A stretch of DNA of 64,000 nucleotides, from contig CP011806.1 in NCBI GenBank assembly GCA_001664505.1, forward strand, positions 5,921,001 through 5,985,000. Direction: 5' to 3'. The stretch comes from Acidobacteria bacterium Mor1 (GTDB lineage: Bacteria; Acidobacteriota; Polarisedimenticolia; Polarisedimenticolales; Polarisedimenticolaceae). Below, in pieces: positions 3,559 to 5,439 of the stretch. How positions within the stretch are numbered: position 1 is the stretch's first letter; every line of letters begins with the position of its first letter. Below the pieces are notes generated by a model, which saw nothing but the letters and a program-made list of their open reading frames with translations, was not told the DNA's origin and made no database searches. Both the position numbers and the translations under genes were made by a program.

Positions 3559-4008
3559 CTACAGGTTGTCCAGATCTTCCAACACCTGGGCGGCGTGCTT
3601 CGAGGTCGAGACCTTCTGGTAGATCTTGGCGATCTTGCCGTCGGCGCCGATCAGGAAGCTGGCCCGCTTGGCGAAACCGAGCATGCCGCGCACCCCGTAG
3701 GCCTGGAGCACCTCTCCCTGGGGATCGCACAGCATCGGAAAGGTCAACCCGTTCTTCTCGACGAAGCGGCGCTGGGCCGCCACCCGGTCGGCGCTGATGC
3801 CGACCACCTTGCAGCCTGCCGCCGCGAACTGTTCTTCTGCGTCGCGGAACCCGCGCGCCTCGATGGTTCAACCCGGGGTGGAAGCCTTGGGAAAGAAGAA
3901 CAGCAGCACCGGGCTACCCCGCATCGAGTCGAGACGCACGGTCTTGCGGAAGGCGTCGGGCAGCTCGAACGGGGGTGCCGGATCCCCGACCTGAGGGCCG
4001 GAACTCAC
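3559..4008 (-). CDS. Peroxiredoxin (PrxQ/BCP type), probable selenoprotein with in-frame UGA at the peroxidatic position
   Basis: Reading from GTG at 4008, the frame encodes a 149-residue PrxQ/BCP-like thiol peroxidase: GDPAPPFELPDAF at the N-terminus, VLLFFFPKASTPG, then TGA (3870-3868) as codon 47, then TIEARGFRDAEEQF and VVGISAD to a normal TAG at 3559. PrxQ proteins have TPGC-T at this place, so the TGA replaces exactly the peroxidatic cysteine. No other stop interrupts the frame. I infer selenocysteine insertion; see the hairpin entry. The resolving Cys expected five residues later is Arg, so this would be a 1-Cys type enzyme. The start overlaps the stop of the beta-propeller gene (GTGA, 4005-4008), which indicates translational coupling. 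Without Sec the product would be a useless 46-residue peptide. A single-base sequencing error (TGC to TGA) is the alternative. Confidence 0.8.
3839..3858 (-). promoter_or_regulatory. Candidate bacterial SECIS hairpin downstream of the UGA
   Basis: Seventeen nucleotides after the UGA, the mRNA can form GCG-C-GCGG, apical loop GUU, CCGC-GA-CGC: four loop-closing G-C/C-G pairs, a small internal loop, then three more pairs. Bacterial SECIS elements are expected as a short stem-loop in the coding region just after the UGA, with the apical loop about 16-37 nt away and a G among its first two bases. All three criteria are met. GC-rich DNA forms hairpins easily, so the element alone is not proof. Confidence 0.5.
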
Positions 4009-5342
4009 GCGCCCACCTTGCCCAGCTCGTAGGCCCGCAGCGAAGCACCGTCCCGCACGAACAGCCGGGTATCCACCAGGGTCGGCGGGGTCCAGGTCTT
4101 CTCCTCGGTGATGCGCACCTCGGCCATGCGGGTCAGGCCCTCGGGGCTGAAGCGCACCATCGCCAGATGTCCCTTGGAATCCAGCAGGATCGTCCGGTCG
4201 CCGACGTGCAGCAGGTTGGATTTTTCGTAGCCCCGTTCCCGCCAGAGGATCTCGCCGCTATCCACCGACACTCCGGCGAGGATCGAGCCCTGGCCGCCGA
4301 TGTTGGCGTAGACGTGGTTGTCGACCCGCAGGGCGTTCCAGTAGTGCAGGTTGACCTTGGGGTTGAACCAGATCTGCTCCGCCTCGATGCCGTCGCCGTT
4401 GCGCTTCAGGTCGAGCAAGCGGGTCCCGCCGTCGAGCTGGGTCGCGACCCACAGCTTGCCGTCGCCGGACCACAGCGGATCGGTCGCGTTGTTGGCGTAC
4501 CGGTTCTCGACCGGTTCGCGCCACAGCACCCGGCCCTCGCCCGAGGCGACGCTGATGACCTCGTCGCTGGTCATGTAGACCACCTGGTCGAGGCCGTCGA
4601 CATCGAAGGCGATCGGCGTGGCGTAGCTGACCGAAGACGGCGGGGTTTCCCACAGGATCGAGCCGTCGTCGGGGGAGAGCGCGATCAGGCCGCGGTCCCC
4701 GCCGACCAGCACCAGCACCGCGCCGTCGTGGAGTACCGGACTCGCCGCGTAGCCGAACTTGGGGACCACTCCGCCGAGCTCTTCCACCAGGTCGTGCTTC
4801 CACAGCAGGGAGCCGTCCTCACGGGACCAGGAGCGCAGCTGTCCGCCGAAGCCCAGGGTCACGATGCGGTCGCCGAGGAGCAGCGGCGTGGCGTTGGGGC
4901 CGAGGCCGAAGTCGGTGACGATCTGATCGCCGGCGATCGGGGCGGTGTAGCGGCTCTCCCAGCGGGTCGCGCCGTCCACGGCGGAGAGCGCCACGATCAC
5001 GTCGTCGTCGCCCTCCCGGTAGGCGCTGTAGAGGGTGTCGCCGGAGGCGGCGAGCGCCGCGTAGCCCGGTCCGAAGTCCCGCTGCCAGATCAGGGGCGGT
5101 CCGTTCTCGGGCCAGCTGTCGGCAAGGTCCCGGGCGGCGAGATGGAAGTCGCCGGCCGGCCCGCCCCAGGCGGGCCATTCACCGTCGAGGGTGGCCGAGA
5201 GCGCGGCACCCGGATCGGGTTCGCTGTCGACCGCCGGTGCATCGGAACCGGAGCAGCCGGACAGAATCAGCATCGCCGTGCAGAGCGCGAGAAACCCGAA
5301 GCCCGCGAGGGACCGGACGGAACGTTTCGGCGTCGATCTCAT
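4005..5342 (-). CDS. Lipoprotein with PQQ-like (BamB-type) beta-propeller
   Basis: A 445-residue protein whose signal peptide ends in the lipobox LSGC, giving a lipoprotein. The rest is built of repeated beta-propeller blades with the PQQ-enzyme-like pattern, such as VDGATRWESRY, EDGSLLWKHDL, DDGSILWETP and DSGEILWRERG. This architecture is shared by BamB and by many periplasmic proteins without bound cofactor; no quinone-binding dehydrogenase signature is visible. The ATG at 5342 has GGAGG six bases upstream; the ATG at 5354 lies before that site. The gene ends in a GTGA overlap with the peroxiredoxin, so the two are probably made together. Confidence 0.8.
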   Translation of the reverse strand: MRSTPKRSVRSLAGFGFLALCTAMLILSGCSGSDAPAVDSEPDPGAALSATLDGEWPAWGGPAGDFHLAARDLADSWPENGPPLIWQRDFGPGYAALAASGDTLYSAYREGDDDVIVALSAVDGATRWESRYTAPIAGDQIVTDFGLGPNATPLLLGDRIVTLGFGGQLRSWSREDGSLLWKHDLVEELGGVVPKFGYAASPVLHDGAVLVLVGGDRGLIALSPDDGSILWETPPSSVSYATPIAFDVDGLDQVVYMTSDEVISVASGEGRVLWREPVENRYANNATDPLWSGDGKLWVATQLDGGTRLLDLKRNGDGIEAEQIWFNPKVNLHYWNALRVDNHVYANIGGQGSILAGVSVDSGEILWRERGYEKSNLLHVGDRTILLDSKGHLAMVRFSPEGLTRMAEVRITEEKTWTPPTLVDTRLFVRDGASLRAYELGKVGA

Positions 5343-5439
5343 CGAATCCTCCATGAATGTCCTGGAGCGCTTCGTCCCGGCCGGGGCTCCGGATTCAGGA
5401 ACCGGATCCTACCACCGCTGGTGGGCGGCAAACAGGGAG

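Follow-up and report, generated by a model that had tools for sequence, protein, structure and literature searches.

A gene on the minus strand of the Acidobacteria bacterium Mor1 genome almost certainly encodes an enzyme that destroys peroxides and has selenocysteine (Sec) at its active site. We are highly confident that it is a peroxiredoxin of the PrxQ/BCP type, whose catalytic residue 47 would be Sec inserted by co-translational recoding of a UGA codon. The window analysed here, that is, the whole stretch of DNA under study, covers the terminal 64 kb of the genome, which is a single contig of 5.985 Mb with a completeness of 99.98; the relevant features of the window are collected in Table 1. 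The frame, the Sec machinery and the conservation of both the TGA and the hairpin behind it can be followed directly at the sequence level. An earlier, sequence-only reading of the window had already taken the gene for a probable selenoprotein with a peroxidatic Sec, and this proposal is now supported by the Sec machinery of the genome, by the alternation of TGA and TGC in homologues and by the SECIS-type hairpin of the TGA forms.

Table 1. Positions of the peroxiredoxin gene and associated features in the Mor1 window.
Feature	Position	Strand	Basis or remark
Gene for predicted Sec-containing peroxiredoxin Q (PrxQ/BCP-like)	3559..4008	minus	GTG start at 4008, TAG stop
TGA in frame at codon 47, in place of the peroxidatic Cys of TPGC	3868..3870	minus	homologue column
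bSECIS-type hairpin, apical loop GUU (3850-3848)	3839..3858	minus	folding and homologue comparison
Arg52 codon CGC, +5 position (usual resolving Cys, TGC), inside hairpin stem	3853..3855	minus	
Cys94 codon TGC, candidate alternative partner of Sec47 (inferred)	3727..3729	minus	enriched in Sec forms
Upstream gene, PQQ/BamB-like beta-propeller protein	4005..5354	minus	ORF list

The frame (4008-3559) consists of 149 codons followed by TAG, and its sole internal stop is the TGA at codon 47. Our re-reading of the minus strand thus agrees with the initial description of a 149-codon PrxQ/BCP frame broken only by the TGA at 3870-3868. The AhpC-TSA domain (Pfam, PF00578) spans the TGA, covering residues 7-128 (3.4e-38, 130.8 bits vs a cut-off of 26), and the codon composition is coding-like on both sides, with GC3 of 0.80 before and 0.90 after the TGA and GC2 of 0.54 and 0.42, respectively. 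As had also been pointed out in the earlier reading, gene callers would deliver an 82-residue C-terminal fragment; in this frame the conventional ORF list indeed holds the 82-aa fragment at 3559-3807 only. The GTG start shares four nucleotides (GTGA) with the stop of the upstream gene and, given this overlap, translation of the peroxiredoxin is possibly coupled to that of the PQQ/BamB-like gene. At the locus of the nearest homologue (L127) the neighbours differ from those of the Mor1 peroxiredoxin, so that no inference can be drawn from operon context.

The AlphaFold2 model of the protein, computed with 48 homologues, has a mean pLDDT of 96.3. Among solved structures, BCP/PrxQ proteins come closest to it, the best match being 5epf, the BcpB of M. 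tuberculosis (40% identity). The top NCBIfam model is the thioredoxin-dependent thiol peroxidase NF006960. With the Cys-type PrxQ/BCP proteins of this model the Mor1 protein shares similarity over the whole length and the TPG(C/U)T motif, but it differs from them by its predicted active-site Sec, by an Arg at +5 and by a score below the cut-off (122.8 bits vs 140). Its fold is also that of the 1-Cys peroxiredoxin AhpE of M. tuberculosis (1xxu, TM 0.90), which likewise has no canonical resolving Cys; however, AhpE is a Cys enzyme from another Prx subgroup and is only 32% identical.

Homologues were gathered from 60 relatives, 396 genomes of the phylum and contigs of named genomes, and were translated with TGA kept visible. 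Looking at codon 47 across them, as the sequence-only reading had suggested, revealed that TGA and Cys alternate at this site: 47 of the 111 aligned homologues have TGA and 64 have Cys. Moreover, 47 of the 51 TGA codons within the aligned regions fall on the peroxidatic column, and the remaining four lie three residues earlier, at the UxxC position of Prx-like proteins. Random nonsense mutation is not expected to produce such a pattern. The closest homologue among the 396 phylum genomes (G091, 52%) likewise carries TGA, and the motif KASTPGUT, again with TGA, is found in two sequences labelled Acidobacteria (L047 and L050), in one labelled Myxococcales (L046) and in the MAG TMED198 (L045).

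A hairpin with a GUU loop had been proposed 17 nt after the UGA. We found it at 3858-3839, and its core is conserved in the Sec homologues. With 8 bp, one bulged A, a distance of 17 nt past the UGA and -11.5 kcal/mol, this hairpin satisfies the published bacterial SECIS model, which describes a loop of 3-9 nt with a G within the first two loop positions, a stem of 4-16 bp, a distance of 16-37 nt from the UGA and an MFE <= -7.5 (PMC13188914). Its stability is no better than that of shuffled sequence (z -0.15), because the DNA is G+C-rich and such hairpins are easy to find; the weight rests on position and conservation. The SECIS criteria are passed by 43 of the 47 Sec genes vs 22 of the 64 Cys genes, and loop spacing clusters in the Sec genes, 17 of which have 17 nt and 15 of which have 21 nt, whereas it is scattered in the Cys genes. 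The strict 17-nt core, defined by a G-starting loop and the outer pairs, is present in 14 of 21 distinct TPGU genes vs none of 53 TPGC genes. In the ungapped alignment, the five inner stem pairs are formed in 88% of cells, compared with 37-65% when the alignment is slid, and for the stem pair at columns 17-27 we see GC, AU as well as CG, so that a base change on one side is compensated on the other. At this spacing, a core of five pairs whose loop starts with G is seen at 7 of 2904 codon positions of seven nearby ORFs, and the exact hairpin core arises in 4.5% of synonymous resamplings of the Mor1 peptide.

The genome contains one tRNA-Sec (C1:1275848, 72.7 bits, above the Rfam cut-off; ARAGORN anticodon tca, UCA) as well as SelA (C1:1427034, 516 bits), SelB (C1:1342028, 330 bits) and SelD (C1:2910488-2911429, 358 bits), the three proteins all scoring above the curated cut-offs. 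A search for selA, selB, selC and selD, which the initial reading had put forward as a check, thus found all four in the same genome, and the organism has the Sec trait. The SelA and SelB matches are free of internal TGA. Across the phylum, selA is present in 249 of the 396 sampled genomes. Eleven genomes have a TGA form among the best phylum matches, and selA occurs in all of them except G343, in which selB is present. With this base rate, the co-occurrence of the Sec machinery is supportive, though not strong alone. Two genomes with TGA peroxiredoxins, G018 and G343, have SelB above the cut-off and no SelA above the cut-off in the assembly, for which an assembly gap or another route to Sec-tRNA are candidate readings. 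The machinery therefore co-occurs with the TGA peroxiredoxins well, although not perfectly.

Other genes with in-frame TGA were observed. SelD (L013) itself has an active-site TGA (ASCAGUASKMGP) and is probably a selenoprotein too. In the same genome, a Prx-like gene (L053, C1:5378496-5378747) has a single in-frame TGA at its UxxC position (FYRGYWUPFC), and it is probably a further redox selenoprotein besides SelD. A separate group of Sec-peroxiredoxins (L043, L044, L059-L068, L070-L073), most of them with TGGUTAEC, has a SECIS-like hairpin mostly at 21 nt and is widespread in the class of the window genome. Several genomes of this class also hold redoxin-like TPTU proteins with a single TGA in the active-site column (L074-L076, L078-L080, L082); L077 and L081 are UxxC Prx-like proteins and stand apart from this set. 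Within the window, a scan for more TGA-interrupted genes gave none that was convincing by eye among the best 40 candidates.

The TGA might be read in other ways. The gene could be an inactivated PrxQ in which a nonsense mutation chanced on the catalytic codon: the genome holds an intact Cys PrxQ (C1:4096996, 41% identical), so this copy could be dispensable, and the tip branch of the Mor1 peroxiredoxin is long (1.12). Nevertheless, a pseudogene is very unlikely in view of 149 codons without any other lesion, of a coding-like composition on both sides of the TGA, of the same-codon TGA in many phylum genomes as well as in MAGs that bear the labels of other phyla, and of the SECIS core accompanied by the full Sec machinery. 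The predominance of Cys among the collected homologues might rather point to a sequencing or assembly error that turned TGC or TGT into TGA, but such an error would have to strike the one codon where homologues have TGA and where a matching SECIS hairpin follows, the strict core of which is absent from the Cys homologues; we consider it extremely unlikely.

In-frame UGA in more than one gene of the genome could also reflect a genome-wide reassignment of UGA to another amino acid, as in the Trp or Gly code variants. The probability of such a reassignment appears negligible, given that the TGAs found take the place of redox-active Cys residues (in PrxQ, at the Prx-like UxxC position and in SelD), that the genome has a dedicated UGA-decoding tRNA-Sec together with SelA, SelB and SelD, and that SelA and SelB are themselves read without internal TGA. 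Recoding of the codon as Sec is the reading that we retain.

Recoding of UGA by SelB and a hairpin, and peroxide reduction by a Sec selenolate, are familiar from the family. In Mor1, SelB would bring the Sec-tRNA(UCA) and bind the mRNA hairpin 17 nt 3' of the UGA, which would then be recoded co-translationally. The Sec selenolate is expected to attack H2O2 or organic hydroperoxides in a standard Prx active site, for which the PxxxTPGU motif and the conserved Arg115 are present. The resulting selenenic acid might be reduced directly by a thiol reductant, e.g. thioredoxin, in a 1-Sec cycle; alternatively, Cys94 or Cys66 might take part as a resolving residue outside the canonical position. What we infer for this peroxiredoxin is that Sec is actually inserted, that the protein acts as a peroxidase, and how the reductive part of its cycle proceeds.

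PrxQ enzymes usually carry a resolving Cys at +5, although this is not universal in the subfamily. It is lacking in 9 of 22 Sec and 9 of 53 Cys homologues, and retained in 13 of 22 vs 44 of 53 (Fisher p 0.04). A link between Sec and loss of the +5 Cys fails when tested as independent changes on the tree, and we keep it as a lead only. In Mor1, the CGC codon at +5 is one transition away from TGC, and C is a better partner than U for the G on the opposite side of the hairpin stem. Since this codon lies in the SECIS stem, replacing a Cys codon (TGC) by an Arg codon (CGC) would strengthen the recoding hairpin too. Cys66 and Cys94 are both present in the Mor1 protein, and Cys94 is found in 15 of 22 TPGU vs 4 of 53 TPGC forms (p 1.8e-7). 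As an independent change, the association of Sec with Cys94 is likewise a lead only, as it is mostly clade-shared, with 3 independent pairs on starred branches.

Thus, the protein might be a selenoprotein and yet a two-residue Sec-Cys enzyme that resolves through Cys94 (or Cys66). Besides the frequency of Cys94 in TPGU forms, this option draws on the retention of Cys94 here while +5 is Arg, and on the model, in which Cys94 ends the strand 92-94. In contrast, the few independent pairs leave a correlated change unsupported, and one Sec form (L091) has no Cys whatever besides Sec, so that a second Cys is not obligatory and, if L091 is active, the family must allow a 1-Sec cycle. Taking both sides together, we regard a Sec-Cys enzyme as possible but rather unlikely. 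The 1-Sec mechanism advanced by the sequence-only reading is plausible: position 52 is indeed Arg, but the argument is weakened by the two remaining Cys, of which Cys94 is commoner in Sec forms. For the Mor1 protein, we would hold a 1-Sec cycle to be roughly twice as probable as a Cys94-resolved one. The broader idea of a Sec-PrxQ subgroup without the canonical +5 Cys, made up of true 1-Sec peroxidases or using Cys94 as a new resolving site, is a tentative one that we consider unlikely as it stands.

Comparison with known Sec peroxiredoxins goes through COG1225, which is the BCP/PrxQ class. In the Sargasso Sea survey, Sec peroxiredoxins (COG1225, TxxU) ranked second in abundance among the families, with 43 genes (PMC1088965); 253 Sec Prx genes were reported from the Global Ocean Sampling (PMC2398784), and Sec Prx is entered as PF00578 TxxU in a 2026 review (PMC13188914). 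A Sec peroxiredoxin of Eubacterium acidaminophilum was described in 2001 by Sohling et al., according to the passage citing it in PMC8533274. Membership in this PrxU type was considered for the Mor1 protein and rejected, with 41.3 bits vs a cut-off of 270 for the NCBIfam model peroxi_PrxU (NF040737). The Mor1 gene resembles the bacterial Sec Prx (TxxU) in its peroxiredoxin fold, its predicted peroxidatic Sec and a SECIS 3' of the UGA (PMC1088965, PMC2398784, PMC13188914). Unlike them, it is without the +5 resolving Cys, and the segment ahead of its conserved Arg is shorter than in most homologues. The family of selenoproteins that the gene joins has been known for some two decades, and the phenomenon is established.

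When the active-site and +5 columns are left out of the tree, Sec and Cys forms are intermingled: the best tree requires no fewer than 8 changes, of which 3 are forced by well-supported branches, and grouping all Sec forms in a single clade is rejected (quick tree, p 0.024). Such repeated Sec/Cys exchange agrees with the study of Zhang et al. 2006, in whose count Cys changed to Sec five times in Prx (PMC1794560). The other five genomes of the same family gave no match of comparable closeness; the gene is therefore isolated in its family, and it may have been acquired, or retained, by this lineage alone.

To conclude, our analysis corrects the annotation of a gene that is easily missed by gene callers and would otherwise stand as an 82-aa fragment, and it gives one more well-supported selenoprotein to a lineage where selA is common among the sampled genomes. 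Moreover, since the exchange of Sec and Cys recurs at one catalytic codon, the homologue set can be used as a natural series in which to study the benefit of Sec to a peroxiredoxin.
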